Positions 21,177 through 40,394 of a DNA stretch of 64,000 bases are shown here, in pieces (position 1 is the first letter of the stretch; each line of letters starts with the position of its first letter). The translations under genes were made by a program, and so were the position numbers. Where the stretch lies: contig NZ_CP090976.1 in the NCBI RefSeq assembly GCF_021513235.1, positions 2,418,001 through 2,482,000 on the forward strand. The letters run 5' to 3'. Origin of the DNA: Kaistella sp. 97-N-M2 (lineage in GTDB: Bacteria; Bacteroidota; Bacteroidia; Flavobacteriales; Weeksellaceae). Below the pieces are notes generated by a model. That model ran no database searches. It saw only the letters and a program-made list of their open reading frames with translations, and was not told where the DNA came from.

Positions 21177-21203
21177 AGATTCGCTGTTATAAATTTTCAG
21201 ATG
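21177..21203. repeat. AGATTCGCTGTTA repeat, copy 2, overlapping a stop codon
   Basis: Nearly identical to 21056-21081. The stop codon of the four-helix-bundle gene (21187-21189) lies inside this copy, so the repeat supplies the end of the reading frame. Confidence 0.8.
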
Positions 21204-25912: not shown

Positions 25913-26365
25913 TTATTTTTTATTGTTTAATTCGTTGGCAATTTTCAGGATGTCGGTCATCACTTCCTTGAAAATTTCCATTTTCTCGTCGGAGATTTTT
26001 TCAATTACTTTTTTATTAAAGTTGACCACCACTTCTTTAGATAAATTACGGCTGTTGAGCCCTTTATCCGTAAGTTTAATAATTACTTCACGTTTGTCAC
26101 TGAGCGTCTTTTCTTTGTAGATGTAGCCGTTATCTTCCAAAAGCTTAATAATTCGGGTCAAAGAAGTCGGTTCGATCGCCATTTTGGGACCGAGATTTGT
26201 GCTTCTGGTTCCTTCTTTCGGGTCAATTTTTAAAAGGGTTAAAGCCTGAACAGCAGTTGCATCGTGGTCTTGTGCCAATTCTGAGTACATTTTCGACACT
26301 GCAAGCCACGTGGATTTTAAAATTAGATCTACATTTTCAACTTTTTCGGGTGTTTTTTTTGTCAT
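25913..26365 (-). CDS. MarR family transcriptional regulator of the beta-oxidation operon
   Basis: 150 residues with the MarR winged-helix fold: dimerisation helices at both ends, the recognition helix in KMAIEPTSLTRIIKLLEDNG (about 65-85) and the wing in KTLSDKREVIIKLTDKG. It heads the fad operon, 5 bases before the fadB-like start. Its own promoter carries the palindrome at 26401-26420 directly upstream of a TATATTTG box, and a perfect copy lies at 26485-26504; an identical site covers the etfBA promoter. It is therefore the likely repressor of beta-oxidation, with an acyl-CoA or fatty acid as probable inducer (inference from comparable systems such as FadR and FabT). Confidence 0.9.
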   Translation of the reverse strand: MTKKTPEKVENVDLILKSTWLAVSKMYSELAQDHDATAVQALTLLKIDPKEGTRSTNLGPKMAIEPTSLTRIIKLLEDNGYIYKEKTLSDKREVIIKLTDKGLNSRNLSKEVVVNFNKKVIEKISDEKMEIFKEVMTDILKIANELNNKK

Positions 26366-26388: not shown

Positions 26389-26396
26389 CAAATATA
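26389..26396 (-). promoter_or_regulatory. -7 box of the marR/fad operon promoter
   Basis: Reads TATATTTG on the minus strand, a perfect match to the Bacteroidota TAnnTTTG element, 24 bases upstream of the marR ATG. Operator site 1 lies 4 bases further upstream, over the -33 region. Confidence 0.65.
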
Positions 26397-26400
26397 AAAA

Positions 26401-26420
26401 ATATTATGCATGCATAGTAT
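26401..26420. promoter_or_regulatory. MarR operator, site 1
   Basis: ATATTATGCATGCATAGTAT, one mismatch from a perfect 20-bp palindrome, identical to the site at 39540-39559. Its position over the -33 region predicts repression of marR and the fad operon. Confidence 0.75.
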
Positions 26421-26484
26421 ATTTAAATTGTTAAACTTTTGTTAATTACTCAGGTTCAGGTACTTAAAATATATGAAATGCATA

Positions 26485-26504
26485 ATACTATGCATGCATA
26501 GTAT
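26485..26504. promoter_or_regulatory. MarR operator, site 2 (perfect palindrome)
   Basis: ATACTATGCATGCATAGTAT is a perfect 20-bp palindrome, 84 bases from site 1 (eight helical turns). It is upstream of the marR promoter and may support cooperative or looped binding. Confidence 0.72.
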
Positions 26505-26530
26505 TTATGGGAAGTGCCTTGAATACGGAT

Positions 26531-27454
26531 TTAGCGAAGGTTATGCAACATTTGCGCGATCTCTGCAAAAGAATGGCACGTATGTTGAAAAGTGTGATTT
26601 GAAATTGCCCAAAAGGAACCTTTCCATTCAAAATGATAGGTCGTGAAGTCTTTTTCGAAGTTTTTTTGAAGGAAAGAATAGAGCATTTCTTTTTCCAACG
26701 CGGGCGCAGAAATCCGTGGCGGAAGAAATGATTTCGTGAAGTTGAAAAGCTGCGGGTTCAGAAGTTCATCGTGTTTTAAGAGGATATCTTCCGTAATACC
26801 GCCGTCCAGTTTTTTGTTGTGGATGATCCACATTTTGTCCGCAAATTCTTTCGCCAAACGCCAGTCGTGCGAGGAAAAAAGGATTAGTTTATTGTGGGTT
26901 TTTGCGAGCTTCCGCAGAAGTTTCAAGATGATGATTTTATTTTCTTCGTCAAGGTGAGTCGTCGGTTCATCCAGAATTATTAACGGAGAGTTTTGGGCTA
27001 AAGCCCGACCTATAAATGCTTTCTGAAGATTTCCATCGGATAATTGGTGTAACGGAAAATCAAGGTACTGCGTTAAATTTAAGCTTTCGACGATCTCTTC
27101 AACTTCTCTTTTATCGGAATTGCTCAATTCAAAATAATACGGATAATGAATGTATTTGCCCAGCGAAACAAGATCTTTCAGCGTATAATTCGCAGGTACA
27201 GGCGATTTAGAGAATACCACCGCGATCTGCTCCGCGATTTCTTTGTTCGAAAGCGATTTTACGCTTTTTCCGCCCAACATTATTTCACCTTCCAAACCAG
27301 GGATCTGATGAAGAATACTTTTAATTAAGGTCGTTTTTCCCACGCCATTATTGCCGATCAACAGACTGATGTCGCCTAAATCCAGCGCCGCATTAACGCC
27401 TTTTATTAAAGGTGTCTTGTAACCGATTGCTGTATTTTTTAATTCTAAAAACAT
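26531..27454 (-). CDS. ABC transporter ATP-binding protein (FecE/BtuD-like)
   Basis: 307 residues from the ATG at 27454 (MFLELKNTAIGYKTPLIKGV); the frame is open 198 bases upstream but that part overlaps non-coding sequence before the permease stop. Walker A GNNGVGKTT (about 33-41), the ABC signature as LSDGNLQKAFIGRALAQ, Walker B LIILDEPTTHLDEEN, and the switch histidine in LFSSHDW are visible. The last 70 residues form an extra tail beyond the normal ATPase (FLPPRISAPALEKEMLYSFL to HNLR). It powers import with the FecCD-type permease encoded 38 bases upstream; siderophore, haem or cobalamin are candidate substrates. No binding protein gene is adjacent. Confidence 0.9.
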   Translation of the reverse strand: MFLELKNTAIGYKTPLIKGVNAALDLGDISLLIGNNGVGKTTLIKSILHQIPGLEGEIMLGGKSVKSLSNKEIAEQIAVVFSKSPVPANYTLKDLVSLGKYIHYPYYFELSNSDKREVEEIVESLNLTQYLDFPLHQLSDGNLQKAFIGRALAQNSPLIILDEPTTHLDEENKIIILKLLRKLAKTHNKLILFSSHDWRLAKEFADKMWIIHNKKLDGGITEDILLKHDELLNPQLFNFTKSFLPPRISAPALEKEMLYSFLQKNFEKDFTTYHFEWKGSFWAISNHTFQHTCHSFAEIAQMLHNLR

Positions 27455-27492
27455 TTTTATTTTGCGTTCACGTTTTATGCAGATTTGTAGGT

Positions 27493-28470
27493 TTATTTGA
27501 CCCTCGTACTTTTCAACATCATCATTAAAATAACCGGAATTCCAAAAAGGGACGTGATCACATTCAAAGGAAACTGCGTGGATTCGGAAATGATAGAAAA
27601 AAATCCCATAATTAAAATGCCTAAGATCATATTCAAAATCCATTGCTGCCATAATTGTGCAGGATTAAACAGCATTCGACAAAAATGTGGAACCACAATT
27701 CCGATGAATAAAATAGGTCCTAAAAACGCCGTTACCGACGCAGAAAGCAGGGAAGAGGCGATGATGACCAGATATTTCAACTGCTTCAAATTGACACCCA
27801 AACTCTGCGCGTAAGCTGTTCCTAATGAATTTCCAATTAGAGGTTTGATGGTTTTAAAAGTCAAGAATAAACCGAGCGCTACAATCACCGACAGCACCAT
27901 AATCTGATTCGTGGAAACCTGATTGTTCGCGCCAAAACTCCACAAAATATAATTTTTTAAACTTTGATTTTCCGCGTAAAATTGTAAGATAGAAACCACG
28001 GCGCCGGCCAATGCTGAAACTAAAAAACCAAAAATGATAAGAAAAGATTTGTCCTGAAATCTGCCTGAAAAAAGCAGCAGAATCGCCATCAAAACTAAAC
28101 TTCCGGCGATAGCCGTAAGGCTTAAAAAACTGTTTTGGAGCAACTCCGGCAAGACCATATCCTGCGAAAAAAAGATATAAAAAGCCACACTTAAACTCGC
28201 CACAGATGTAATGCCTAAAACCGACGGTCCGGCCAAAGGATTCTGAAAATATTCCTGCAACAAAAATCCGGAGGTTGGAATGGAAATCCCCGCCAGTAAC
28301 ATTACCAAAACCCGGTTGATGCGCAACTTTGCGATCTGGGAATGTTCGGAAGAAGCAGAGAAAAAATCCGAAAAATTCAAATTTAAAAAACCGATATTCA
28401 AGTTCACAATAACCGAAATAACAATTCCGATAAGAATGAAAATGGCGGTAATTTTGAAATTTTTAGTCAT
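27493..28470 (-). CDS. FecCD-family iron/cobalamin ABC transporter permease
   Basis: 325 residues with about ten membrane helices. Typical BtuC/FecCD segments: RINRVLVMLLAGISIPTSGF near residue 50, LQEYFQNPLAGPSVLGI, the cytoplasmic NNQVSTNQIMVLS region, and FLGPILFIGIVVPHFCRMLF near 240. It forms the membrane channel with the ATPase downstream. The substrate-binding protein and TonB-dependent receptor are not in this stretch and must be encoded elsewhere or nearby outside. It starts 71 bases downstream of the thioredoxin lipoprotein gene on the same strand. Confidence 0.9.
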   Translation of the reverse strand: MTKNFKITAIFILIGIVISVIVNLNIGFLNLNFSDFFSASSEHSQIAKLRINRVLVMLLAGISIPTSGFLLQEYFQNPLAGPSVLGITSVASLSVAFYIFFSQDMVLPELLQNSFLSLTAIAGSLVLMAILLLFSGRFQDKSFLIIFGFLVSALAGAVVSILQFYAENQSLKNYILWSFGANNQVSTNQIMVLSVIVALGLFLTFKTIKPLIGNSLGTAYAQSLGVNLKQLKYLVIIASSLLSASVTAFLGPILFIGIVVPHFCRMLFNPAQLWQQWILNMILGILIMGFFSIISESTQFPLNVITSLFGIPVILMMMLKSTRVK

Positions 28471-28541
28471 AAATCTTTTGGATTTTTAAACAAAGAAAAC
28501 ACCTTCTAAAAAGATGTCTTCTATAAATAAGGGCGCTATAA

Positions 28542-29114
28542 CTATTTAAAAGAATTTAGCTTTTCGGTGAGCATTTCTTCGCTCATCGAACCTAAAGTTT
28601 CGTCGGTTTTATCGCCTTTTCTCATGTAAGTAAAGGGGATCGCGCCGCCGTTCCAATTTTTAAAAGTCGATGCGAAAAATTCCGGGGTCAATTTAGAGCC
28701 GTCTAAAAGCACAACGTGATTGGACAATCCCTGTTCTTCCGCAAATTTTTTCACCTTCGTGTCCCAGTCCTCTTTTTGGTCCAAATCGACAAAGGTAAAT
28801 TTCACCGGCTGGCCTTTCATTTCTTCCATCTTTTTCTTGAAATGCGGAATTTCCTGCATGCATGGGCCGCACCACGTTGCAAAAAAGTTGTTCACATAAA
28901 GCGTATCGTTATTTTGTTTGCCCATAAATTTGGAAGCTTCGGCAGGCGAAAGTTCTACTTTCTTAAAAGGTACAACTGCTGCGCTGGCTTCATTGGATTC
29001 GGATACCGTTATTGAATCTGAAGTTTTGTTTTCTGCATTTTCTACAACATTTGTTTCTTTCTTACAAGAAGCTGCTGTTGCCAGAACCATCAAACCAAAA
29101 ATTACTTTTTTCAT
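28542..29114 (-). CDS. TlpA-like thioredoxin lipoprotein
   Basis: 190 residues. The signal peptide MKKVIFGLMVLATAASCKK ends in a lipobox, so Cys17 is lipidated. After a Ser/Glu-rich linker (18-48) the thioredoxin fold has the redox motif WCGPC with C82 and C85 in NNFFATWCGPCMQEIPHF. It resembles periplasmic disulfide reductases of the TlpA/ResA group. The gene is divergent from the PaaE-like reductase gene, with only 33 bases between the two start codons, so the promoters must overlap. Its distance of 71 bases to the ABC permease makes co-transcription possible. Confidence 0.9.
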   Translation of the reverse strand: MKKVIFGLMVLATAASCKKETNVVENAENKTSDSITVSESNEASAAVVPFKKVELSPAEASKFMGKQNNDTLYVNNFFATWCGPCMQEIPHFKKKMEEMKGQPVKFTFVDLDQKEDWDTKVKKFAEEQGLSNHVVLLDGSKLTPEFFASTFKNWNGGAIPFTYMRKGDKTDETLGSMSEEMLTEKLNSFK

Positions 29115-29147
29115 TATATTTTTATTATTTTTGAATCATTATTAATT

Positions 29148-30272
29148 ATGGAAAAACTCTTACCAAAAGCGAAGCAGACTGAATTTCACCGGCTAAAATT
29201 AGCGAAAAAACGACAGTTGACCAAAAACATCTTCGCTTTGGAATTCGAAATTCCCGAAATGCTGAAACCCAATTATCGCTTTGAAGCCGGGCAGTATGTC
29301 ACCTTAAATTATACTTCGAAGGGTGAAGTGGTTCAGAATGATTTCTCCATGACTTCGGCACCTTTTGAAGAGAAAATTACTTTAGGAATCAAGATTAATT
29401 ACGAGAAAAGTTCCACGCAGGATTTCCTGAATAATTTGGATGTTGGCGACGAAGTAGAAGTATCCGAACCGCGGGGCCGCTTTACCATCGTGGCCAAACC
29501 GCACGAATTTCGTACCATCATTGGGTTTGCAAGCGGTATTGGAATTACACCCATTCTCAGCCATTTTAAAAATTTGCTTCATACCGAACCGCGAACGCGG
29601 CTTTTCCTTTTTTATGGAAACCGCAAAACGGAAGAGATTGCCTTTAGGGATGAACTCGATGCGCTGGCAAAAAAATATAATGACCGGCTGCAGATTTTCT
29701 ACTTTTTCTCCCAGGAAATCCCCAGCGATCATCTATTTTATGGCAGGTTAGACGAGAAGAAAGTACGCTTAATCATCAATCAAATTTTGCATTTGGATGA
29801 TACCGATGAAGAAAGTACCATTTGGGATGCGGTTGATGAAGTCTTAATTTGCGGAAAAGGCGATATGATAAAAGCTATTGCGAACGCCTGCTATAATAAC
29901 GGAATTCAAAAGAAAAACATTCATTTTGAGCTTTTTGAGGAATATAATGAAGATATTTATCCCGTCGAAAAAGACTTTCCTCTTATAGAAAACATTGAAC
30001 TGGATTTTAAACTTTATAATAACAATTACAGCACAACTTTAGAAAACAATAAGGAAAAACTGCTGCAACAGCTTTTGATTCAGGAATTTCCCGTGCCTTA
30101 TTCCTGTAAATCCGGAATATGTGGAAGTTGCGAATGTATTCTGGAAGAAGGCGAGGTAGAACTGCTGGAGAATGAGTATTTAACGGAAAAGGAAGAGAAA
30201 GCCGGGAAAATTTTAGCGTGCATGTCGGTAGTTTTAAGCAAGAAAATAAAAATAAATTTCGACCTAATTTGA
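29148..30272 (+). CDS. Ferredoxin-NAD(P)H reductase with C-terminal 2Fe-2S domain (PaaE-like)
   Basis: 374 residues in three parts: an FAD-binding barrel (about 10-115, GQYVTLNY and NDFSMTSAPF), an NAD(P)-binding domain (about 120-260, GFASGIGITPILSHFKNLL and FYGNRKTEEI) and a plant-type ferredoxin domain at the C-terminus with C320, C325, C328 and a last Cys in KILAC. This is the layout of PaaE and of Hmp-like oxygenase reductases, which pass electrons from NAD(P)H to an oxygenase partner. No paa catabolic genes are near, so the partner is unknown. It begins 33 bases from the divergent thioredoxin gene and ends 4 bases before the SanA-like gene. Confidence 0.9.
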   Translation: MEKLLPKAKQTEFHRLKLAKKRQLTKNIFALEFEIPEMLKPNYRFEAGQYVTLNYTSKGEVVQNDFSMTSAPFEEKITLGIKINYEKSSTQDFLNNLDVGDEVEVSEPRGRFTIVAKPHEFRTIIGFASGIGITPILSHFKNLLHTEPRTRLFLFYGNRKTEEIAFRDELDALAKKYNDRLQIFYFFSQEIPSDHLFYGRLDEKKVRLIINQILHLDDTDEESTIWDAVDEVLICGKGDMIKAIANACYNNGIQKKNIHFELFEEYNEDIYPVEKDFPLIENIELDFKLYNNNYSTTLENNKEKLLQQLLIQEFPVPYSCKSGICGSCECILEEGEVELLENEYLTEKEEKAGKILACMSVVLSKKIKINFDLI

Positions 30273-30276
30273 TCAT

Positions 30277-30903
30277 TTGAAAAGAATTTTAGACATACTG
30301 AAATCATTTTTTATTCTGGTGGAAATTGGGGTTTTGCTTATGATTTTGGCGAATGTCTGGGTTTTTGCCAGCACCAATGGACGAACATTTACGAAGATTT
30401 CTAAAATCCCGCCGCGCGAAACGGCTCTCGTTTTGGGCACGTCGCCGAGAATGAAATCCGGCGTCTCTAATCCTTATTTTACTTCCCGCATGGATGCAGC
30501 TGCTCTTCTGTATCACCACGGAAAAATAAAAAAAATCATTGTCAGCGGCGAAAAAAGCCGGGGCTACGACGAACCTTCAGCCATGAAAAACTATCTTGTT
30601 TATCAGGAAGGTGTTCCCGAAAGCATTATCACCGAAGATCCGAAAGGTTTTAAAACCCAGACCAGCATCAACAACTGCAAAAACATTTATCAACAAAATG
30701 ATGTAATCATCGTCTCCCAGGGTTTTCATAATCTGCGCGCCCTCTTTTATGCCCGCAATAACGACATGAATGCGCTGGGTTTCGATGCGCAGGATGTTTT
30801 GAGCAATGAAAGTTACTACAGAAATCAATCGCGGGAATTTTTGGCGCGCGTTTACGCAGTTATTTTTTATCTGTTGGGAATTGAGAACAAAGCTTCTGTT
30901 TAA
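30277..30903 (+). CDS. ElyC/SanA/YdcF family protein (DUF218)
   Basis: 208 residues with an N-terminal membrane helix (about 10-30) and a DUF218 domain: ETALVLGTSPRMKSGVSNPY, RMDAAALLYHHGKIKKIIVSG, EPSAMKNYL, and DVIIVSQGFHNLRALFYARN. This is the SanA type linked in E. coli to envelope integrity and vancomycin exclusion. The start is a TTG at 30277, four bases after the previous stop; no ATG with a membrane signal is available. Its co-transcription with the reductase is probable, but no functional link is known. Confidence 0.85.
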   Translation: MKRILDILKSFFILVEIGVLLMILANVWVFASTNGRTFTKISKIPPRETALVLGTSPRMKSGVSNPYFTSRMDAAALLYHHGKIKKIIVSGEKSRGYDEPSAMKNYLVYQEGVPESIITEDPKGFKTQTSINNCKNIYQQNDVIIVSQGFHNLRALFYARNNDMNALGFDAQDVLSNESYYRNQSREFLARVYAVIFYLLGIENKASV

Positions 30904-30957
30904 GCAAGTTTGGGAAAATTCTTTCGTCTTATTTTTCTGAAAATCTACACAAAAACC

Positions 30958-30965
30958 TATATTTG
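30958..30965 (+). promoter_or_regulatory. Candidate -7 box of udk
   Basis: TATATTTG, a perfect TAnnTTTG match, 16 bases before the udk ATG. No clear -33 TTTG was found. Confidence 0.5.
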
Positions 30966-30981
30966 TACAAATTAAAATTTT

Positions 30982-31599
30982 ATGCTCGTTATCGGAATTG
31001 CAGGTGGCACCGGCTCTGGAAAAACCACGGTTGTTAATAAAATCCTTCAACAACTAAATGCAGAGGGAGTTAATGTGCTTTCGCAGGACAATTATTATCA
31101 TGACAATCAACACCTTACCCTTTCCGAAAGAGAAGTTTTAAATTACGATCATCCAAAATCCATCGATTTCGATTTGCTGATCAGGCATGTAAAAGATCTG
31201 AAAAGCGGCAATCATATCGAACAACCGATTTATTCTTTCGTAACGCATTCGCGCACGGGCGATCACGTTTTGATTGATCCGAAAAATGTACTTATTGTGG
31301 AAGGAATTTTAGTGCTTACCAATAAAGAACTTTTAAAAGAATATGACTTAAAAGTTTTTGTTCATGCGGATTCCGATGAAAGGTTGATCCGTAGAATCCG
31401 CCGCGACACTCAAGAACGGGGCCGCGATTTGCAGGAAGTTTTGCATCGTTATCAAACCACGTTAAAACCCATGCATCAGGAATTCATCGAACCGTCGAAA
31501 AATGAAGCGGATCTTATTGTACCGAATATGAAGCAAAATACCGTGGCGATCGATTTTCTTTCGACGGTAATTAACAATACTTTAAAGAAAACGCATTAA
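30982..31599 (+). CDS. udk: Uridine kinase
   Basis: 205 residues. Phosphorylates uridine and cytidine in pyrimidine salvage. The P-loop GGTGSGKT is at residues 8-15, the substrate-binding NYDHPKSIDFD follows, and DPKNVLIVEGILVL and IRRIRRDTQERGRD are intact. A TATATTTG box 16 bases before the ATG suggests its own promoter. The FtsB-like gene follows 46 bases later, an order seen in flavobacteria. Confidence 0.94.
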   Translation: MLVIGIAGGTGSGKTTVVNKILQQLNAEGVNVLSQDNYYHDNQHLTLSEREVLNYDHPKSIDFDLLIRHVKDLKSGNHIEQPIYSFVTHSRTGDHVLIDPKNVLIVEGILVLTNKELLKEYDLKVFVHADSDERLIRRIRRDTQERGRDLQEVLHRYQTTLKPMHQEFIEPSKNEADLIVPNMKQNTVAIDFLSTVINNTLKKTH

Positions 31600-31645
31600 A
31601 TTTAGTAAAGATTTCATTCTGTTTTTTAGGAATAATACCGCACCG

Positions 31646-31996
31646 ATGAAAGAATTAATTAAAGAAATAAAGCCGAAGACGCCTGCCGTTAAATTTCTTC
31701 AGAAATATGTTCTGACCAAATATTTTGTGACTGTTTTTTTATTTTTAATATGGATGGTTTTCTTTGATAATACGTCGTTTTTAGTTGTTAATGAGCTCAA
31801 TGGGGAAATAAGCAGGTACGAAGAACAGTTGGCTTATTACAAAGACGAGTACCGCAAAAATGACGAGTTCTACAAGAAGTTGATGAACAATAAATCTGAA
31901 AAGGAAAAATTTGCGCGCGAAAATTATTTTATGAAAAAACCGAATGAAGAAATCTTTATTTTGGTGGTGGATTCCAGTAATCTAAAGAAAAAATAA
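31646..31996 (+). CDS. FtsB/DivIC-family septum formation initiator
   Basis: 116 residues with one membrane helix (about 30-48, FVTVFLFLIWMVFFD) followed by a periplasmic coiled coil (NELNGEISRYEEQLAYYKDE) and the family ending ENYFMKKPNEEIFIL. FtsB/DivIC links FtsL and FtsQ in the divisome. Small size and topology fit; strict assignment to FtsB or DivIC is not possible from this sequence alone. It lies between udk and mutA, the usual place in Bacteroidota. Confidence 0.88.
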   Translation: MKELIKEIKPKTPAVKFLQKYVLTKYFVTVFLFLIWMVFFDNTSFLVVNELNGEISRYEEQLAYYKDEYRKNDEFYKKLMNNKSEKEKFARENYFMKKPNEEIFILVVDSSNLKKK

Positions 31997-32042
31997 ACGC
32001 AGAAACTCTATAAAATCGGCGTTGATCTAGAAAATAAAGTTG

Positions 32043-32252
32043 ATGGCATTTATCACTAAAAAACATTTAATCTTCTTCACCGTATTTTTCTCTATTACGT
32101 TGATCGGACTGGTGATCAACCATTACCTCGGATTCGGCGAAAAAGAAAATGTTTTTAACGCTGTTTTTTATTCGCAATTATTGAAGTCGGCAGTTATTTC
32201 TGCTGCAGTTCTGATGCTTTTAATAATTAACATTAAGAAGAAAGTGTGGTAA
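32043..32252 (+). CDS. Small two-helix membrane protein
   Basis: 69 residues starting at the ATG at 32043 (a TTG three bases upstream is also in frame). Two hydrophobic segments (about 9-27 and 45-64) with a short polar loop NHYLGFGEKENVFNAVF. No family recognised. It sits between the FtsB-like and mutA genes, on the same strand and with short spacers, so it is likely part of that transcription unit. Confidence 0.65.
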   Translation: MAFITKKHLIFFTVFFSITLIGLVINHYLGFGEKENVFNAVFYSQLLKSAVISAAVLMLLIINIKKKVW

Positions 32253-32312
32253 CATTCTTTAGAGAAGAAGTTCTGAATATCTTAATATTTATAGTTTTAA
32301 TAATTTACGCAA

Positions 32313-33506
32313 ATGTTTAAAAATATTACACTTCGAGACTGGGAAAATATTGTTCAGAAGCAACTGAAAACAGACGATATTTATGCTGTTCTGTCCAAAG
32401 AAAATCTGGAAGGAATTCAGGTTAAACCCTATTACGCTTCGGTGGCAAAACCCTTAAATAATCTGCCTAAAATTGAAGAGTCTACGCATCTTGTCTCCAA
32501 TTATCACGAAAGTTCGGAAGAAAATGTTTTTGCATTTCTGCTCAACAATAACGTCGAAAATTTAACGGAGAAAGTGATTTTTGTTAATAATAAGGATCTC
32601 GCGGAACATATTTCTGTGGTAGAAACGAACCGCTATTTTTCTTTAATCGACATTTTTTCGGAGGACGAAAGCGGGGAAATCAGGGAACAGTTGGGAAAAG
32701 AACTTTTGGCGAAAAATTTTGAAAAAAATATCTGCATCGACATTGCCCTCCATCAGAACGCAGGCGCAACTATCACGCAACAATTGGCGGTAGGCCTGGC
32801 AAAAGCAAAAGACATAACGGAAATTTTTGGCGCCGAAATTTTAACAAAAATTATTTTTAAAGTTGCCCTTGGCGGAAACTATTTCTTTGAAATCGCTAAA
32901 ATCAGAGCCCTAAAATTACTATATAACCAGTTTTCCAAAGAATTTGGTTTGGATGAAATCCCTTACATTTTTGCAGAAACTTCGCTGCGAAATAAATCGA
33001 CGGCCGATGCGGAAAACAATCTGATACGTTCCACGCTGGAACTTTCTGCCGGCATGATCGGAGGTGCAGACGCGGTTTATACGAATAATTACAAGATTGA
33101 AAATTCATCCTCGCTGTCTGAAGAAATTTCCTTTAAGCAGCAGATTGTTTTAGCGTATGAAAGTATAATTAATGTTTTCGATGATGCCGGGAACGGAAGC
33201 TACTATATCGAAGATCTCACGCAGCAGTTTGCAGAAAAAGCCTGGAAAGTATTTCTGAAAATGGAAGAAGAAGGCGGATACTGCGAACTTCTGAAATCCG
33301 GTAAAATTCAAAAAACCATTTACGAACAAGCTTTAAAAGAGCAGATTTGGGTGGAAGAAGGCAAAATAAAAATCATCGGTGTGAATCTTTATCCTACACT
33401 GGAAAAAAGAAGACTGCCGCGCAAATGTACGACAGCAGTGAGATTAAGCCCATGCGGCTGGCGGAAATGTTCGAATAAGTTTATCACGAATGCGCATATT
33501 TATTAG
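32313..33506 (+). CDS. mutA: Methylmalonyl-CoA mutase small subunit, C-terminus frameshifted
   Basis: The open frame gives 397 residues. It matches the small (beta, MutA) subunit of methylmalonyl-CoA mutase: ITLRDWENIVQKQLK, DIALHQNAGATITQQLAVGL, NKSTADAENNLIRSTLELSAGMIGGADAVY, in parts. Near 33403-33408 a run of six A appears one base short: with a seventh A the protein would end in the family tail YDSSEIKPMRLAEMFE with a stop at 33476-33478. As read, the last 30 residues are off-frame. The catalytic large subunit, normally just downstream, is absent. The small subunit has no cofactor of its own and stabilises MutB; whether it is functional here is unclear. Confidence 0.8.
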   Translation: MFKNITLRDWENIVQKQLKTDDIYAVLSKENLEGIQVKPYYASVAKPLNNLPKIEESTHLVSNYHESSEENVFAFLLNNNVENLTEKVIFVNNKDLAEHISVVETNRYFSLIDIFSEDESGEIREQLGKELLAKNFEKNICIDIALHQNAGATITQQLAVGLAKAKDITEIFGAEILTKIIFKVALGGNYFFEIAKIRALKLLYNQFSKEFGLDEIPYIFAETSLRNKSTADAENNLIRSTLELSAGMIGGADAVYTNNYKIENSSSLSEEISFKQQIVLAYESIINVFDDAGNGSYYIEDLTQQFAEKAWKVFLKMEEEGGYCELLKSGKIQKTIYEQALKEQIWVEEGKIKIIGVNLYPTLEKRRLPRKCTTAVRLSPCGWRKCSNKFITNAHIY

Positions 33507-33629
33507 TAATACTACCTAATTCGTGAATGATTATTAGAAATTAATAATTCTCTTCCGCATCAAGCAATTCTTGCATCCGTGGCACAAGAAATCGCGTGAA
33601 ATCCCCAGCAAAATATTAGAAAAATAAAA

Positions 33630-34781
33630 GTGGAGAAAAAAATTCTCACTCCGGAAGTTCAAATCTTTATCGATGCAAATCTACACTCCGATTTGCATTC
33701 TTTGTTGCTGAAAAAATCGCCCTTTCCCGAAATTTCGATGCACGAAATTGTGCAGCAGATTAAAGGAAAAAAAGTGGCGCAAAAAAAGTTTCCTTTTTTA
33801 CTTAAAGAAGGAATCGTCTTTCCGCCGAATCTGAATTTAGAACAGGCTTCCTCGCAATCCACCGCAGAATACAAAGCGAAAAATGTAGAGGGCAAAACAT
33901 TTTTGGATCTTACCACAGGATTTGGCATCGACGCGTATTTTCTGTCTCAAAATTTTACAGAAGTAACATTGGTGGAACAAAATAGCCCGCTTTTGGAAAC
34001 CGTAAAACACAACTGGACGATTTTAGAAAGAAAAGCCGCCTTCCTCAACGAAAATCTGGAGGAATTTTTAAAGAAAAATACGGCAAAATTCGATGTCGTT
34101 TATGTTGATCCGGCCCGCAGAGACGATAACAAAAACAAAAAATTCCTGCTCGAAGATCTTTCGCCCAATCTGCTCGAGATTCAGGGTCAACTTGCCGAAA
34201 TATCATCGCAAACGATCAGCAAACTTTCCCCGTTGATTGATATTTCTTACCTGATTTCTGTTTTGAAAAATATATCAAAAATCGAAATTATCGCCCTAAG
34301 AAATGAGGTTAAAGAATTGCTGGTTTACATAGAAGGTGATGCGAAATTACACGATGTAAAAATTTCCTGCATCAATCTGGAAAGTGACGACGCGGATTTT
34401 ACGTTTAATTTTCAGGAAGAAAAAACGGCGGTTTCCCTCTTTTCGGAGCCCAAACAATTTCTTTATATTCCAAATAATACAGTTTTAAAATCCGGCGCTT
34501 TCAACTTGGTTTCCGAAAAATTCAGCCTGAAAAAACTTCATCCCAACACGCATTTTTATACCTCAGATGTTGTGTTGAATCATTTTCCGGGTAGAATTTT
34601 AAAGATTGACACCGTGGATTCTAAAGACATTAGCAAAGGCGGGAAGTACAACATCATCTCGAAAAATTATCCTTTAACGCCGGACCAAATTAAAAAGAAA
34701 TACAAAATTTCTGATGGCGGAGATTTCTATTTAATTTTTACGCAAACGCAGAAAGGAAAGATTATTTTAAAATCTCAATAA
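33630..34781 (+). CDS. Class I SAM methyltransferase with THUMP-like domain
   Basis: 383 residues. A Rossmann methyltransferase core (about 85-240) has TFLDLTTGFGIDAYFLSQ as the SAM-binding motif and VVYVDPARRD as the catalytic-type loop. The C-terminal part carries the THUMP-like segment with PGRILKIDTVDSKDI and GGDFYLIFTQ. Similar flavobacterial proteins are annotated as THUMP-like domain methyltransferases and probably act on RNA; the target is not known. The start is a GTG at 33630, before EKKILTPEVQIFID; no nearer ATG fits. It follows mutA after a 123-base spacer. Confidence 0.85.
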   Translation: MEKKILTPEVQIFIDANLHSDLHSLLLKKSPFPEISMHEIVQQIKGKKVAQKKFPFLLKEGIVFPPNLNLEQASSQSTAEYKAKNVEGKTFLDLTTGFGIDAYFLSQNFTEVTLVEQNSPLLETVKHNWTILERKAAFLNENLEEFLKKNTAKFDVVYVDPARRDDNKNKKFLLEDLSPNLLEIQGQLAEISSQTISKLSPLIDISYLISVLKNISKIEIIALRNEVKELLVYIEGDAKLHDVKISCINLESDDADFTFNFQEEKTAVSLFSEPKQFLYIPNNTVLKSGAFNLVSEKFSLKKLHPNTHFYTSDVVLNHFPGRILKIDTVDSKDISKGGKYNIISKNYPLTPDQIKKKYKISDGGDFYLIFTQTQKGKIILKSQ

Positions 34782-34836
34782 TTTTTTTGTAGAAAGGGGC
34801 AATATTCCTTACTTTTGGGCAATCAAAAATTTTAGA

Positions 34837-35127
34837 ATGAAAAAATTAATTGTAGGCGTAGCTTTCGCGAGTGTTGTTGTTAGCTGTAAAAAAATTCAGG
34901 CCGGTTCAAATCACGGTGTGTTAAAAGCAGAAGAAAACGCGGGAAGATACAGCGATGATGTAATGAGCGACGAAGCTACAGCGAAATATGACGCGATGCA
35001 TGGAAGTGCAAATGCAGCATCGAACGACACTACAAAAGCTACCGGGATGCAAACAGCACCCGCAAAAATGGATTCCGCAAAAATCGTAACACCTACTTCC
35101 GTTACTGCCGCGCCCGAAGCGAAATAG
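34837..35127 (+). CDS. Small Ala/Thr-rich lipoprotein
   Basis: 96 residues. Signal MKKLIVGVAFASVVVSCKK with a lipobox (VVSC) makes Cys17 the lipid anchor. The mature chain is low in hydrophobic residues and rich in Ala, Ser, Thr and Lys (NAASNDTTKATGMQTAPAKM), probably disordered. No family recognised. A strong UUCG-loop terminator follows 26 bases after the stop, so it is the last gene of its unit. Confidence 0.7.
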   Translation: MKKLIVGVAFASVVVSCKKIQAGSNHGVLKAEENAGRYSDDVMSDEATAKYDAMHGSANAASNDTTKATGMQTAPAKMDSAKIVTPTSVTAAPEAK

Positions 35128-35153
35128 AATATTTAAAAATAAGATAAAACCTT

Positions 35154-35184
35154 AATGTCTTGCTTCGGCGGGACATTTTTTTTA
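35154..35184 (+). terminator. Terminator with UUCG tetraloop
   Basis: A 10-bp stem (AATGTCTTGC with GCGGGACATT) closed by C(TTCG)G is followed by eight T. Confidence 0.88.
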
Positions 35185-35224
35185 TTTTTACAAGATTCGA
35201 CTTTAAAATTCTTAAAATATTAAA

Positions 35225-36607
35225 ATGAAAGAAACCTTAAATTACATTCAGGAGAACAAGCAGCGTTATGTTGAGGAACTTTTTGAATTATTAAAAATTG
35301 CTTCGATCTCCGCAGATCCTGCCTATAAAGATGAAGTTTTGAGATGTGCCGACGAAGTAGCAAAATACCTGAAAAATGCGGGTGCAGATGACGTTGAAGT
35401 TTGCCAAACTGAGGGTTATCCGATTGTTTTTGGGCAAAAACTGATCGATCCAAAATTGCCCACGGTTTTGGTGTACGGTCATTACGACGTTCAGCCACCG
35501 GATCCGTTGGAATTATGGACAAAACCACCTTTCGAACCGTATATTGAGAAAACAGAAATTCATCCCGAAGGAGCCATCTTTGCCCGCGGATCGGCCGACG
35601 ATAAAGGACAGTTTTTTATGCATATTAAAGCCTTTGAGGCGATGATGAAAACAGATACCTTACCATGTAACGTTAAGTTTATTTTGGAAGGCGAAGAAGA
35701 AGTAGGCTCCAAAAGTCTGGAGGCTTTTGTGAAAGAGCAAAAAGAAAGACTGGCTTGCGACGTGATCTTAATTTCCGATACACATATTTATTCTAACGAA
35801 CAACCCACGGTTACGACAGGGCTTCGTGGTTTAAGCTATGTAGAAGTCTCGGTGGAAGGACCGAACAGAGATCTGCATTCCGGCTTATACGGCGGCGCGG
35901 TTCCGAACCCAATCCATGTGCTTTCGCGCATGATCGCAAACTTGATCGATGAAAATGGACACATTACAATCGACGGATTTTATGATAATGTGGATGTGGT
36001 TTCCGAGGAAGAAAGAGCGGAAATGAACAAACTGAAAGACGATTCCGAAAGTTTTAAAAAATCAATTGGTTTAAATGGAGTAGAAGGCGAAAAAAACTAC
36101 ACTACTTTAGAAAGAACTTCAATCCGCCCGACGTTGGACTGCAACGGGATTTGGGGTGGCTACATCGGCGAAGGCGCGAAAACGGTGATTCCGTCCAAAG
36201 CTTTTGCGAAGATTTCCATGAGATTGGTTCCGTATCAAACTCCGGAGGAGATTACCGAAAAATTCACGAAATATTTTGAAAAAATAGCGCCTGCAAATGT
36301 GAAAGTTAAGGTAACGCCGCACCATGGCGGCATGCCATACGTTTTGCCCAGCGATACGAAAGAATTCCGCGCGGCTAAAAAAGCTATGGAAACTGCCTTC
36401 GGAAAAGAAGTCCTTTCGTACAGAAGCGGCGGCAGTATTCCGATTACGGCCATGTTTGAAGAGGTTTTGCAAGCAAAATCCGTGTTGATGGGCTTTGGTT
36501 TGGATTCGGATGCCATTCATTCACCAAACGAACATTACGGGCTGTACAACTTCTATAAAGGAATTGAAAGTATTCCGCTTTTCTTTGAGAATTACGCGAC
36601 AGTTTAA
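35225..36607 (+). CDS. M20 family dipeptidase
   Basis: 460 residues of the M20/M25/M40 carnosinase-like dipeptidases. Zinc-binding elements are visible: VYGHYDVQPPDP (His and Asp), the bridging DDKGQ segment ARGSADDKGQFFMHI, EGEEEVGS with the catalytic and metal glutamates, and HSPNEHYGL near the C-terminus. The lid domain lies at about 200-330 (SVEGPNRDLHSGLYGGAVPN). It cleaves dipeptides in the cytoplasm; peptide preference is not evident. It is monocistronic, between two terminators. Confidence 0.9.
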   Translation: MKETLNYIQENKQRYVEELFELLKIASISADPAYKDEVLRCADEVAKYLKNAGADDVEVCQTEGYPIVFGQKLIDPKLPTVLVYGHYDVQPPDPLELWTKPPFEPYIEKTEIHPEGAIFARGSADDKGQFFMHIKAFEAMMKTDTLPCNVKFILEGEEEVGSKSLEAFVKEQKERLACDVILISDTHIYSNEQPTVTTGLRGLSYVEVSVEGPNRDLHSGLYGGAVPNPIHVLSRMIANLIDENGHITIDGFYDNVDVVSEEERAEMNKLKDDSESFKKSIGLNGVEGEKNYTTLERTSIRPTLDCNGIWGGYIGEGAKTVIPSKAFAKISMRLVPYQTPEEITEKFTKYFEKIAPANVKVKVTPHHGGMPYVLPSDTKEFRAAKKAMETAFGKEVLSYRSGGSIPITAMFEEVLQAKSVLMGFGLDSDAIHSPNEHYGLYNFYKGIESIPLFFENYATV

Positions 36608-36705
36608 ACTAAAAATTACACCAATCTCGATAAAAGTTGATTAACATTGTGTTTTTCAACTTTTTTTTAATACTTTCGTGCTCAATAAAAAACAAAATCT
36701 TTATT

Positions 36706-37659
36706 ATGAAAAAAGTTTACTTATTAGGCGCAGTCTTTTTTGCCCTTTTTGCTAATGCACAAGAATTTGCTGCGGTTAGTTCATCCCCATCATCTAATGT
36801 TTCGCCGACTAAAGCTCCTGGAGTTATTTATTCGCAGCCAATTGAGGGTACCTCTGGAATTGTTTCCGACGTGTTAAGCAATGGCAATTACGTTGCGGCC
36901 GCAGACGATTTTATCTTAACTGATAACAGTGTGGTTTCCCGGATTACCGTTACTGGTTTTCAAAATCAAGGAAATTTAGAAACGGTAGTTTCAACTGGTT
37001 TGATCATGTACATTTACACCGATGCAAACGGAATGCCTTCTGGAAACCCCACCGATGCAGCACAAACACCAGTTGCTAAGATCGATCTTTCTAAATCTTC
37101 TCCTGCATACAGTTTAGTAAAAACAGGCAGCACCTATGCTTACTCCGTTAATATTCCATTGGCTTTAGGAAAAGGCATATCCTTAAATAAAGATACAACG
37201 TACTGGTTGGTTTTTGCCGCAAAAACAAATCTTTCAGCTTATACAGGCGCAACCAGATTTAACTGGTATACAGCGGCAAGAGTTGGTAATAAAGCGAAAC
37301 TAATCGATCCGAGCGATGCATTTCAGGCAGGCGCAACAAATTGGACAGATATTTCTGAATTAACAGAGGATGCATCTTTTGATGGTTTGACTTTCACTAT
37401 TGAAGGTGAAACAGCACTAGGAACAGGGGAAATCTACAATTCTAACAAGGTAAGTATCTCACCTAATCCAACTTCAGATTACCTGAACTTTAACGCGAAA
37501 GTAAAATCAGTTCAGATTATTGATGCTGCGGGAAGAAATGTTTCTTCAGCAAAAGTAACAAACAACCAAGTGGATGTAAGAAACCTTGCAAAAGGCGTTT
37601 ATATTGTTAAGTTTGAAACTGAAAAAGGTACACAGACTGAAAAATTCATCAAGAAATAA
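36706..37659 (+). CDS. Secreted T9SS cargo protein with type A sorting domain
   Basis: 317 residues from the ATG at 36706, which starts the signal peptide MKKVYLLGAVFFALFANAQ; the frame is open 69 bases upstream. The central region is beta-rich (IYTDANGMPSGNPTD, YWLVFAAKTNLSAYTG) with no named domain. The C-terminal 75 residues are a T9SS type A sorting domain: ISPNPTSDYLNF, VKSVQIIDAAGRNVS, VDVRNLAKGVYIVKFET, EKFIKK. The protein would be exported by Sec, then carried across the outer membrane by the type IX system and attached to the surface or released. The tail is nearly identical to that of the next gene. Confidence 0.85.
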   Translation: MKKVYLLGAVFFALFANAQEFAAVSSSPSSNVSPTKAPGVIYSQPIEGTSGIVSDVLSNGNYVAAADDFILTDNSVVSRITVTGFQNQGNLETVVSTGLIMYIYTDANGMPSGNPTDAAQTPVAKIDLSKSSPAYSLVKTGSTYAYSVNIPLALGKGISLNKDTTYWLVFAAKTNLSAYTGATRFNWYTAARVGNKAKLIDPSDAFQAGATNWTDISELTEDASFDGLTFTIEGETALGTGEIYNSNKVSISPNPTSDYLNFNAKVKSVQIIDAAGRNVSSAKVTNNQVDVRNLAKGVYIVKFETEKGTQTEKFIKK

Positions 37660-37711
37660 TTAAACAGATAATGTTTGTTAGGAAACGCCTCGATTAGAGG
37701 CGTTTTTTTTT
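37462..37711 (+). repeat. Sorting-domain repeat, copy 1 (coding tail plus terminator)
   Basis: The DNA for the T9SS tail, the stop, the following AATTAAACAGATAATGTTTG spacer and the hairpin closely match 38518-38767. Identity extends past the stop codon, which marks a DNA-level duplication rather than protein convergence alone. Confidence 0.85.
37683..37711 (+). terminator. Terminator after the first T9SS cargo gene
   Basis: Stem AAACGCCTC / GAGGCGTTT (9 bp, 5-base loop) followed by a run of T. Confidence 0.87.
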
Positions 37712-37809
37712 GAACTTGTTCCAGAAAATATATTTTCATCAAATAATGTGTAATAGACACGTAAATCAAATATTTTTTATATTTTTGATGAAATTTAAAT
37801 CAATTTATT

Positions 37810-38715
37810 ATGAAAAGACTTTTACTTATTGCATCCTTAGCTGGATTATCCTTCGCAAGTGCTCAAACCAACGTGTACAGTTATGGTTTTGATGCGGCCT
37901 TTACCGCCCAATGGACTTTAACAAATCAAAGTTCCCCAAGCACCTCAACACTTTGGTCCAAAGCTTCCTACACTTCAACATCGGCTGCTATTTTTGGAAG
38001 TACGCCACCTGCGCTTCCGAAAGGACAGGACGGTACCGACAACACCTTCGCGATCGTGAATTATACCAGTACATCAGGTGCAGGAACGATAAGTAACTGG
38101 CTAATCACCCCTACAGTAAACGTACAGGATGGTGACGTTGTAAGTTTCTACACAAGAAAAGGAACCGATGGAGCTACCGATTATGCAGATCGTTTGGAAC
38201 TTCGCTACAGCACTGCCGCTACAACGGTAAATCCTAGTGGAGGAAGCGCAGGTCTGGGATCTTTTACAAACCTTGGAGTAACGGTTAATCCGAATTTACA
38301 AACAGGTTTCGTTTATCCGCAAGTATGGACCAAGTACTCCTTCACCGTTGCTGGTGTAGGTGCCACTCCGGTTGCTACCAAATTTGCGTTTAGATATTTT
38401 GTAACAAGTGGAGGTCCTAGCGGTAACAATTCAGATATCATCGGTATTGATACATTTTCTGTAGACCGTCCAGGTTTAGCGGTTAGCGATTCTTCAACTT
38501 CAAAACTGGCACTTTATCCTAACCCTACTTCGGATTATTTATATTTTAGTGCTGATGTAAAATCAGTTCAGATTTTTGATGCTGCCGGAAGAAACGTTTC
38601 TTCAGCAAAAGCAGCGACCAACAAGGTAGATGTAAGAAACCTTGCGAAAGGAGTTTACGTTGTTAAGTTTGAAACTGAAAAAGGTACGCAGACTGAAAAA
38701 TTCATCAAGAAATAA
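37810..38715 (+). CDS. Secreted T9SS cargo protein with choice-of-anchor J domain
   Basis: 301 residues. Signal peptide MKRLLLIASLAGLSFASAQ is followed by a jelly-roll, choice-of-anchor-J-like domain (about 22-215) beginning YSYGFDAAFTAQWTLTNQS and containing SNWLITPTVNVQDGDVVSFY and WTKYSFTVAG. The C-terminal 75 residues are a T9SS type A sorting domain (LYPNPTSDYLYFS, VDVRNLAKGVYVVKFET, EKFIKK) nearly identical to that of the preceding gene. The carbohydrate- or protein-binding role is unknown. It has its own promoter region and terminator. Confidence 0.85.
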   Translation: MKRLLLIASLAGLSFASAQTNVYSYGFDAAFTAQWTLTNQSSPSTSTLWSKASYTSTSAAIFGSTPPALPKGQDGTDNTFAIVNYTSTSGAGTISNWLITPTVNVQDGDVVSFYTRKGTDGATDYADRLELRYSTAATTVNPSGGSAGLGSFTNLGVTVNPNLQTGFVYPQVWTKYSFTVAGVGATPVATKFAFRYFVTSGGPSGNNSDIIGIDTFSVDRPGLAVSDSSTSKLALYPNPTSDYLYFSADVKSVQIFDAAGRNVSSAKAATNKVDVRNLAKGVYVVKFETEKGTQTEKFIKK

Positions 38716-38767
38716 TTAAACATATAATGTTTGTTAAAAAGCGCCTCTATTCGAGGCGTTTTTTTTA
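38518..38767 (+). repeat. Sorting-domain repeat, copy 2 (coding tail plus terminator)
   Basis: Second copy of the block described at 37462-37711. The terminator arms have diverged, but with compensating pairing. Confidence 0.85.
38737..38767 (+). terminator. Terminator after the second T9SS cargo gene
   Basis: Stem CGCCTC / GAGGCG, extended by a G-T pair and A-T pairs, loop TATTC, then a run of T. Confidence 0.85.
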
Positions 38768-38790
38768 TATTTAAGAATTAAATTATTATC

Positions 38791-39498
38791 ATGTTTCAAA
38801 ATAAAGTAGCTTACATTACCGGCGGCACAAAAGGTATAGGATTTGGAATTGCAAAAATTCTGTCCAATCAGGGAATTAGAGTCGCGATCAGCGGCAGAAA
38901 ACAAGAAGATGTGGAAAAAGCGGCTGCAGAAATTTCCAGTGATGCTTCGAAAGTTTTAGGTATTGTTTCAAACGTAAGGAATTTCGAGGCGGAAGAAAAA
39001 GCGGTTTCGGAAATTAAAAACCATTTTGGTCAGCTCGATTATGTGGTTGCTAACGCCGGTATGGGCGTTTTCAAACCCGTGGATGAACTCTCAGTAGAAG
39101 AATGGAACGACATGATTGAAACTAATCTGACAGGACTTTTCTACACTTTGAAAGCCTCCGTAGAAGAATTAAAGAAATCGGAGGGCTATTTCATCAGCAT
39201 TTCCAGTTTGGCAGGCACAAACTTTTTCGAAAAAGGTTCGGGTTACAACGCGTCCAAATTTGGCGCGGTAGGATTTACGCAGGCTGCCATGATCGATCTC
39301 CGGAAATATAATATTAAAGTTTCTACCATCATGCCGGGCTCGGTCTCGACCAATTTTAACGGCAATGAACCCTCTGAAAAAGATTCCTGGAAAATTCAAC
39401 CCGAAGATTTAGGAAATTTAGTCCTGGATATTTTCAAAATGAATCCACGGTCTTTACCCAGCAAAATCGAAATTAGACCCTCTAAACCAAATAATTAG
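38791..39498 (+). CDS. Short-chain dehydrogenase/reductase
   Basis: 235 residues of the classical SDR family. NAD(P)-binding TGGTKGIGFGIA is at residues 10-21, NAG follows as VANAGMGVF, the catalytic serine is in SISSLAGTN, and the YNASK motif carries the catalytic tyrosine and lysine. The substrate is unknown. It lies just after the second T9SS cargo terminator and upstream of etfBA; about 40 bases downstream is the MarR operator that controls etfBA, so it is probably not in that regulon. Confidence 0.9.
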   Translation: MFQNKVAYITGGTKGIGFGIAKILSNQGIRVAISGRKQEDVEKAAAEISSDASKVLGIVSNVRNFEAEEKAVSEIKNHFGQLDYVVANAGMGVFKPVDELSVEEWNDMIETNLTGLFYTLKASVEELKKSEGYFISISSLAGTNFFEKGSGYNASKFGAVGFTQAAMIDLRKYNIKVSTIMPGSVSTNFNGNEPSEKDSWKIQPEDLGNLVLDIFKMNPRSLPSKIEIRPSKPNN

Positions 39499-39539
39499 TC
39501 TTTTTCTTTATTATGCAAATAATATATTTTCTGCAGAAT

Positions 39540-39559
39540 ATATTATGCATGCATAGTAT
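39540..39559. promoter_or_regulatory. MarR operator upstream of etfBA
   Basis: ATATTATGCATGCATAGTAT, identical over 20 bases to the operator at the marR/fad promoter (26401-26420). It covers the -33 region of the etfB promoter. Confidence 0.75.
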
Positions 39560-39566
39560 AATTTTT

Positions 39567-39574
39567 TATCTTTA
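39567..39574 (+). promoter_or_regulatory. -7 box of etfBA
   Basis: TATCTTTA, a near match to TAnnTTTG, 7 bases after the operator and 74 bases before the etfB ATG. Confidence 0.5.
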
Positions 39575-39647: not shown

Positions 39648-40394
39648 ATGAAAATATTAGTGTGTATCAGTAGTGTCCCGGATACTACATCAAAAATTAA
39701 CTTTACGGCAGACAAATCTGCGTTCGACAAAACCGGCATTCAGTGGGTAATTAATCCCTTGGACGAATTTGCCCTAACGAAAGCTATTAAATTACAGGAA
39801 TCGCAAGGTGCGACAGTTACAGTACTCAATGTGGGCGAGGCCATTACAGAACCTGTGATCAGAAAAGCGCTGGCGATTGGGGCGAACGATGCGGTAAGAA
39901 TTAATACAGAACCTAAAGACAGTTATTCTGTCGCAAAAGAAATTGCGAATGTGGCGCAAACAGGCGGTTATGATATGATTCTTTGTGGTAAGGAATCCAT
40001 CGATTATAATGGCGGTTCGGCGCCGGGAATGGTCGCTCAACTGCTCGGTCAGCCTTTTGTAAACGCGTGCGTTGGTTTGGAGGTGAATGGCGCTGAAGCC
40101 ACTGCTGTTCGCGAAATCGAAGGCGGAAAAGAAACAATTTCCGTAAAACTGCCCGCTGTTATCGCCGGACAGAAGGGAATGGTCGACGAAAAAGATCTCA
40201 TCATCCCGAACATGCGCGGAATTATGTCGGCGAGATCGAAACCTTTACAGGTTTTGGAAGCATCGTCTTCGGAAGTGAAAGTAGAAGGGGTTTCGTACGA
40301 TTCGGTTCCGCAAAGAGCAGCTGTAAAGATGGTTTCTGCAGATAATCTCGACGAACTTGTGAGATTACTTCACGAAGAGGCAAAAGTAATTTAA
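39648..40394 (+). CDS. etfB: Electron transfer flavoprotein, beta subunit
   Basis: 248 residues from the ATG at 39648 (MKILVCISSVPDTTSKINF); an in-frame upstream ATG would add 14 unrelated residues. EtfB binds AMP and, with EtfA, accepts electrons from acyl-CoA dehydrogenases. Family segments are WVINPLDEFALTKAIKLQE, ILCGKESIDYNGGSAPGMVA, and LPAVIAGQKGMVDEKDLIIP. It is followed by etfA after 29 bases. The shared palindrome with the fad operon places both under the same MarR regulator. Confidence 0.94.
   Translation: MKILVCISSVPDTTSKINFTADKSAFDKTGIQWVINPLDEFALTKAIKLQESQGATVTVLNVGEAITEPVIRKALAIGANDAVRINTEPKDSYSVAKEIANVAQTGGYDMILCGKESIDYNGGSAPGMVAQLLGQPFVNACVGLEVNGAEATAVREIEGGKETISVKLPAVIAGQKGMVDEKDLIIPNMRGIMSARSKPLQVLEASSSEVKVEGVSYDSVPQRAAVKMVSADNLDELVRLLHEEAKVI

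Follow-up and report, generated by a model that had tools for sequence, protein, structure and literature searches.

The DNA considered here is a stretch of 64,000 nucleotides from the genome of Kaistella sp. 97-N-M2 (NZ_CP090976.1, positions 2,418,001 to 2,482,000), called the window below, and our subject is a palindromic element that lies in front of two sets of its fatty-acid degradation genes. The first set is on the reverse strand and begins with marR (25913–26365), encoding a MarR-family regulator of 150 aa. It is followed by genes for a fadB-like 3-hydroxyacyl-coenzyme A (CoA) dehydrogenase/enoyl-CoA hydratase of 797 aa (23514–25907; PF02737, PF00725, PF00378), a fadA-like thiolase of 394 aa (21578–22762; PF00108, PF02803) and an acyl-CoA dehydrogenase of 592 aa (19239–21017; PF02771, PF02770, PF00441), the last of which also matches the FadE model NF058590 with 678 bits (cut-off 600). 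The second set, on the forward strand, consists of etfB (39651–40394, with ATG taken as start; PF01012) and etfA (40424–41371; PF00766, PF01012), which encode the beta and alpha subunits of the electron transfer flavoprotein (ETF). The gene names at both loci rest on Pfam and NCBIfam matches. Judging from sequence comparison, we propose that the palindrome is the operator of this MarR protein, which would repress both the fad operon and etfBA and be released by acyl-CoA; to this reading as a whole we assign a probability of about 0.87.

Scanning the window, we found the perfect 20-bp palindrome ATACTATGCATGCATAGTAT at 26485–26504 and one and the same one-mismatch form, ATATTATGCATGCATAGTAT, at both 26401–26420 and 39540–39559, exactly where an earlier note on this DNA had placed them. 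That note had seen no other copy, and indeed the window contains none at up to three mismatches; 100 dinucleotide shuffles gave none either. The whole genome (2,870,393 bases in one contig) matches the palindrome at up to three mismatches only at the same three places, with no match for the reversed pattern used as control, and the degenerate 12-bp core TATGCNNGCATA also occurs exactly three times (control 0). Two of these copies precede marR-fadB-fadA-acyl-CoA dehydrogenase and the third precedes etfBA; the search for randomly placed copies thus returned only sites before genes of one pathway. On the strength of these genome-wide counts and the reversed controls we rejected chance and repeat readings of the palindrome.

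The two copies at marR, both on the reverse strand, will be called O1 and O2. The putative proximal operator O1 (26401–26420; core TATGCATGCATA, one mismatch) is situated about 36 bp upstream of the marR start and 4 bp upstream of the −7 box TATATTTG (26389–26396), while the distal copy O2, the perfect palindrome, is 84 bp away from it. The candidate operator of etfBA, on the forward strand, is identical in sequence to O1 and is followed after 7 bp by the −7-like box TATCTTTA (39567–39574). The earlier note had described the palindrome as sitting a few bases upstream of a −7 box; this is true of O1 and of the etfBA site, but not of the perfect copy, which is distal and about 120 bp from the marR start. 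A box is present at etfBA as well, but as a variant of TAnnTTTG rather than in the strict form.

The predicted operator core, present at the regulator's own promoter and at that of etfBA, is conserved wherever a sampled MarR protein heads a fadB operon. With the MarR protein we found 192 loci, the best 80 of which constitute the named loci referred to below, and each of these has a perfect core in front of marR. Within the family, a MarR orthologue (E ≤1e-15) is encoded in 107 of 120 genomes, and the 20-mer at up to two mismatches occurs in 77 of the 120 (reversed control: in none). The marR upstream regions of 88 of the 107 MarR genomes were inspected, leaving 19: the core is perfect in 85 and has at most one mismatch in 87, the exception being G002. 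Family orthologues with as little as 42–55% identity keep the site with different outer bases. The view that the strict 20-mer is confined to the genus was abandoned, because most inspected MarR genomes lacking a match at up to two mismatches retain the core and differ only in the outer bases, as in TTATTATGCNNGCATAATAA.

Orthologues were then sought more widely. A profile built from 23 MarR proteins was run against 246 genomes of the order; 157 have an orthologue, and 120 of these are outside the family. Twenty of the 120, from families f2, f3, f4, f5, f7, f8, f11, f14 and f15, were inspected, followed by four more from f3: the core is perfect in 19/20 and present in 4/4, and fadB lies downstream in 17 of the 20. 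In the three loci without fadB, which belong to two families (L323, L326, L329), the MarR gene is transcribed divergently from one for an AMP-binding enzyme, as would be expected of an acyl-CoA ligase; L326 is the only one of the 20 without a perfect core. In the phylum sample an orthologue at E ≤1e-20 occurs in 46 of 247 genomes, and all 16 of those outside the order were inspected. Thirteen of them are linked to fadB, with a perfect core in 10 and one mismatch in three. Among the three with no fadB within about 2 kb downstream, L388 has a one-mismatch core and L395 and L398 have nothing at up to three mismatches. Comparing the recognition helices of these relatives was uninformative, as L388 keeps the positions that are invariant in site carriers and L395 and L398 depart from them at A31 only. 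The core remains unchanged though the MarR protein drops to about 30% identity. Outside the order, the regulator was found in families f17, f21, f22, f23 and f24, and not in the listed genomes of f18, f19, f20 and f25. The earlier note had predicted a repressor and operator in this lineage; the pair is there, but the phrase is too narrow, since it also exists outside the order.

Several properties place the regulator in the MarR family. The curated profile PF01047 is matched with 41.9 bits (cut-off 24.6), and the promoter of marR contains a putative palindromic operator, a trait of this family. The Pfam matches comprise only MarR and related winged-helix models, with no TetR-family domain among them, and a sequence search of the PDB returned remote MarR matches only. 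The closest named relatives are proteins of Kaistella species, with 93% identity. With the FabT equivalog model NF050133 the protein reaches 30.6 bits against a cut-off of 200, and the operon that it heads is one of degradation and not of synthesis, the process controlled by FabT, though three of 40 additional sites elsewhere in the order are near ketoacyl-ACP-synthase-III-type genes.

The link to etfBA was examined across the family. Among the matches listed, 15 of the 15 inspected that lie away from marR precede etfBA, with EtfB proteins 70–90% identical, and three more (in G078, G111 and G119) adjoin etfB by coordinates. The search of the genome and its relatives that the earlier note had advised thus came out as it predicted, with matches preceding marR-fad and etfBA. 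EtfB is encoded in 119 of the 120 family genomes, including 12 of the 13 without MarR, and the etf site could therefore be compared with the presence of the regulator. A perfect core precedes etfB in 64 of the 71 MarR genomes compared and in one of the 12 that lack the regulator (Fisher p = 2e-8); when 12 genomes chosen for having a match are dropped, the figures become 52/59 and 1/12 (p = 1e-7), both p values being only indicative because the genomes are related. The same is seen inside a single genus, g17, where the etf site is present in 3/3 genomes with MarR and in 0/6 without. Eleven of the 13 genomes without MarR have no fadB match (E ≤1e-20) either, the match being weak in G102 and partial in G072; the fad operon, the regulator and the etf operator have therefore gone together. 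That the etfB site tracks MarR while the core is conserved supports the suggestion of the earlier note that fad and etf may form one regulon.

Two further observations concern the etf locus. In other families (L352, L354, L363, L364, L375 and L384), a gene with Transket_pyr and Transketolase_C domains is transcribed divergently from etfBA, and the putative operator lies between the two; this gene looks like that of pyruvate dehydrogenase E1 beta and may be under the same regulation as etfBA. In one genome (G056:C1:1095347-1096086) the best etfB match falls into two overlapping pieces with one stop each, which denotes a broken gene or a sequencing error.

The marR promoter has a recurrent architecture. 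Among 157 distinct marR upstream regions, 107 contain two core sites, 47 contain one and three none. The motif TAnnTTTG, which we take to be the Bacteroidetes −7 box, follows the proximal site at 3–9 bp in 143 of 154 distinct upstreams (at 4 bp in 97), compared with 3.7% of 20-bp windows drawn from the same upstream regions; these 154, like the 65 distinct etfB upstreams mentioned below, include many close relatives, mostly from one or two genera. Being directly upstream of the −7 box, the operator would cover the −33/−7 spacer, a classic position of a repressor. In 153 sites, picked by their core from dereplicated promoters, outer positions are constrained too (T2, A3, Y4; R17, T18, A19), with a variable centre.

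Twin sites are present at marR in 75 of the 80 named loci, with a spacing of 83 bp in 64, 84 in seven, 78 in three and 82 in one; in 32 dereplicated twin-site promoters the spacings are 84 (15), 83 (10), 78 (5) and 82 (2). Directly after the distal palindrome comes a further element, O3 (26472–26484, reverse strand; TATGCATTTCATA), whose pattern TATGCNNNTCATA is exact in 29 of the 32. Counted without dereplication, 118 of 134 two-site records have it in exact form, and nothing like it occurs in 49 single-site records. Averaged over the ten promoters whose spacing is 83 bp, identity is 87% in the O3 element as against 61% in the rest of the interval. O3, which does not figure in the earlier note, appears to be in effect a second, imperfect operator abutting O2, an arrangement that may allow two dimers to bind side by side. 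Looping between O1 and O2 is a possibility, as their spacing is nearly fixed, though not strictly in helical phase; phasing was discarded as proof of looping, five of the 32 promoters being off phase. Another twin geometry is found in L019, L404 and L392, where the marR operators are about 29–33 bp apart instead of 83–84 bp.

Further candidate sites were collected with the pattern NYTATGCNNGCATARN in 16 genomes of the order. It matches at 61 places, 14 of which are marR sites, and 40 of the 47 others were inspected. The nearest gene is etfB in eight cases, an acyl-CoA dehydrogenase gene in four, a gene for a TonB-receptor or outer-membrane barrel protein in nine, a nitronate-monooxygenase-type gene in five (two of them divergent from a 4HBT thioesterase gene) and a ketoacyl-ACP-synthase-III-type gene in three. 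One site each belongs to genes for PEPCK (288 bp away), FadL, a GDSL lipase-like protein and an alpha/beta hydrolase. A site in L358 adjoins the gene of a protein with Oxidored_FMN and Pyr_redox_2 domains, the layout of 2,4-dienoyl-CoA reductase; this site coincides in part with the furthest upstream of the possible starts, ahead of the first domain. Six sites lack an obvious connection: at L366, L370, L374 and L379 the gene matches another Pfam family or none, L372 is intragenic and L368 has no gene start nearby. One putative operator is thus common to several beta-oxidation units, namely the fad operon and etfBA and, in other families, acyl-CoA dehydrogenase, FadL and PEPCK. The targets etfB, acyl-CoA dehydrogenase, FadL and PEPCK, the last of which serves gluconeogenesis, make sense for growth on fatty acids. 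The thioesterase, the reductase-like protein of L358 and the AMP-binding enzyme divergent from MarR are likewise in keeping with the use of lipids.

The regulator is most likely, on this comparative evidence, a MarR-family, acyl-CoA-responsive repressor of fatty-acid degradation; its binding to the core, the repression and the release by acyl-CoA are what we infer, and they could proceed as follows. A MarR dimer would bind the core, with one half-site for each recognition helix, and in doing so would cover the −33/−7 spacer and bar RNA polymerase from marR-fadB-fadA-acyl-CoA dehydrogenase and from etfBA. When fatty acids are imported and activated, long-chain acyl-CoA or a similar beta-oxidation intermediate would bind MarR and free the DNA, whereupon the dehydrogenases and their electron acceptor ETF would be produced together; marR would autoregulate. 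Acyl-CoA is put forward as the signal because of the pathway and of the precedents CouR, FerC and Bacillus FadR. The second strong operator 83–84 bp upstream and the third one abutting it would probably tighten repression through cooperativity or looping, which is the least certain step.

Some results weigh against this proposal. At etfB, a core is not recognisable in the MarR genomes G025, G003, G031, G002, G042 and G015, and that of G021 has one mismatch; G002 is also without a core at marR. Conversely, G072 has an etf site and no MarR match, in an assembly of about 370 contigs in which, as said, the fadB match is partial. The strict TAnnTTTG follows the etfB site in 0/65 distinct upstreams, where only a relaxed form is found: TAnnTT[TA][GA], chosen after seeing the sequences, lies 7–11 bp past the site in 59 of these 65 site-bearing upstreams (background 11% per 22 bp of the same upstream regions), a placement that in itself counts for the proposal. 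Part of the extra targets in the order must be due to chance, since the reversed control gives 26 matches against the 61, and in G311 the control (7) even exceeds the matches (1). As there is no fourth site in the Kaistella genome, any fadD, fadL or pckA gene, for which no search was made, would be outside the regulon. Finally, the regulator is patchy outside the order, with 201 of the 247 phylum genomes having no match at E ≤1e-20.

These points bear on a number of other explanations. MarR might bind the site as an activator or dual regulator, or answer to free fatty acid, to acyl-acyl carrier protein (acyl-ACP), as FabT does, or to redox state. Activators exist in the MarR family and its ligands vary (extract of PMC5487221), and the similarity of the regulator to FabT, CouR and OhrR is remote in every case. 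On the other hand, at marR and etfBA alike the core immediately precedes the −7 box, a position that suits occlusion more than activation, and the linkage to catabolic rather than biosynthetic genes speaks against a FabT-like logic; we thus regard such a variant as rather unlikely, with perhaps one chance in its favour to three against. Far less probable is that another transcription factor targets the site and that marR is merely one of its targets. Any dimeric factor could read a palindrome, and G072 keeps the etf site although no MarR was found there, but the site recurs at the promoter of marR itself inside and outside the order, the etfB promoter is without it in 11 of 12 genomes lacking MarR, and the three MarR relatives without a nearby fadB have no perfect core.

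A structural or repeat element with no regulatory role, be it a hairpin, a REP-like repeat or a methylation or restriction site, would account for the near-perfect palindrome and would agree with the Y1 transposase gene inside the fad operon. We give it next to no credence, because the 2.87 Mb genome has just three copies, every one of them preceding genes of the same pathway, and because the core persists where the flanks have diverged and hardly varies in its distance from the −7 box. The distal elements O2 and O3 call for a separate judgement, as they could serve a promoter of their own, or the upstream ABC-transporter gene at its 3′ end, instead of repression. O2 is only 26 bp from the stop codon of that gene, and a conserved TTAa comes after O3. 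However, O2 contains the complete operator core, which O3 nearly repeats, a second promoter is not evident (only 7 of 107 two-site promoters have TAnnTTTG after the distal site), and O3 is missing from all 49 single-site records; we are therefore doubtful of this alternative, though about as willing to entertain it as that of an activator or a different ligand. Repression by the MarR protein through the palindrome is the reading that we retain.

A wider form of this reading is tentative, and we would sooner bet against it than for it: the MarR protein would be an ancestral master regulator of lipid use in this bacterial class, since lost in many lineages, with a three-operator array (O1, O2, O3) at its own promoter for repression by cooperativity or looping. 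It would have retained a single operator code even as the protein itself diverged to about 30% identity. In larger genomes it would command fad, etf, acyl-CoA dehydrogenase, FadL, TonB-dependent receptors and PEPCK, and in Kaistella's own genus the regulon would have shrunk to two units. Its odds are lowered by the patchy occurrence of the regulator outside the order.

The surroundings of the fad operon present some features of their own. Upstream of marR and in the same direction are iron/B12-type ABC transporter genes (permease, ATPase; best NCBIfam matches below the cut-offs), so that the marR promoter is not a divergent one. Between fadB and fadA lies an open reading frame for a Y1/IS200-like transposase (22886–23350, reverse strand; PF01797), and a relative occupies exactly the same place and strand in 34 of the 79 named loci that have fadB and fadA. 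Two more relatives, with 52 and 43% identity, are encoded in the Kaistella genome, and the transposase looks as if it had been kept, or inserted repeatedly, within the beta-oxidation operon. Between fadA and the acyl-CoA dehydrogenase gene, a 23S_rRNA_IVP four-helix-bundle protein is encoded (21187–21543, reverse strand; PF05635), a relative of which is found in the same place in 19 of the 80 named loci.

If the proposed regulon is real, an exact 12-bp core would identify, across many genomes, both the regulator and the genes it controls, give a likely function to an uncharacterised group of MarR proteins and hint at which TonB receptors may serve lipids. It would also supply flavobacterial genetics with a repressor-operator pair, perhaps an acyl-CoA sensor. 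Regulon decay, too, would have a clean natural example here, in the genomes that have lost the fad operon and also lack the etf operator.

The regulation of fatty-acid degradation has been worked out mainly for Proteobacteria and Bacillus. The comparison that follows draws on extracts of the papers cited. In Proteobacteria, fatty-acid degradation regulons under FadR (GntR family), PsrA (TetR) and FadP (TetR) have been described by comparative genomics, and unrelated regulator families replace one another between lineages (PMC5343134); the table of that paper, as shown in the extract, has no MarR protein among the fatty-acid regulators, and it deals with another lineage. In Flavobacterium psychrophilum, the transcriptome shows higher expression of beta-oxidation genes in response to fish mucus and plasma (PMC9723704), and the main text of the paper does not contain the words MarR, palindrome or etf. 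A literature search aimed at a regulator of fatty-acid degradation in this phylum, or at a MarR regulator of the pathway, showed none among the titles and beginnings of abstracts listed, although one may be in print elsewhere or recorded in a regulon database.

CouR and FerC, of the MarR family, repress catabolic genes and come off when a CoA thioester binds (PMC5487221), and a further regulator, MbdR, responds to 3-methylbenzoyl-CoA (PMC4424350). These three act on aromatic acyl-CoA, and in sequence CouR is only remotely related to the protein described here (E = 2e-4). FabT of enterococci and streptococci regulates fatty-acid genes and is encoded by the first gene of an operon that it controls (PMC13046290); it also belongs to the MarR family, represses synthesis and binds DNA better with acyl-ACP (PMC5487221), whereas the present regulator heads a degradation operon and remains far below the FabT cut-off. 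A parallel in logic is the TetR-family FadR (YsiA) of Bacillus subtilis, which represses five fad operons, one of them with etfB-etfA, and is inhibited by long-chain acyl-CoA (PMC4525379). Fad and etf are co-regulated there as they would be here, but in Kaistella by a MarR protein instead of a TetR one and with etfBA as a separate unit, joined to the fad operon by an identical putative operator. Co-regulation of fad and etf is thus known from elsewhere, while the family of the regulator and its operator appear to be new.

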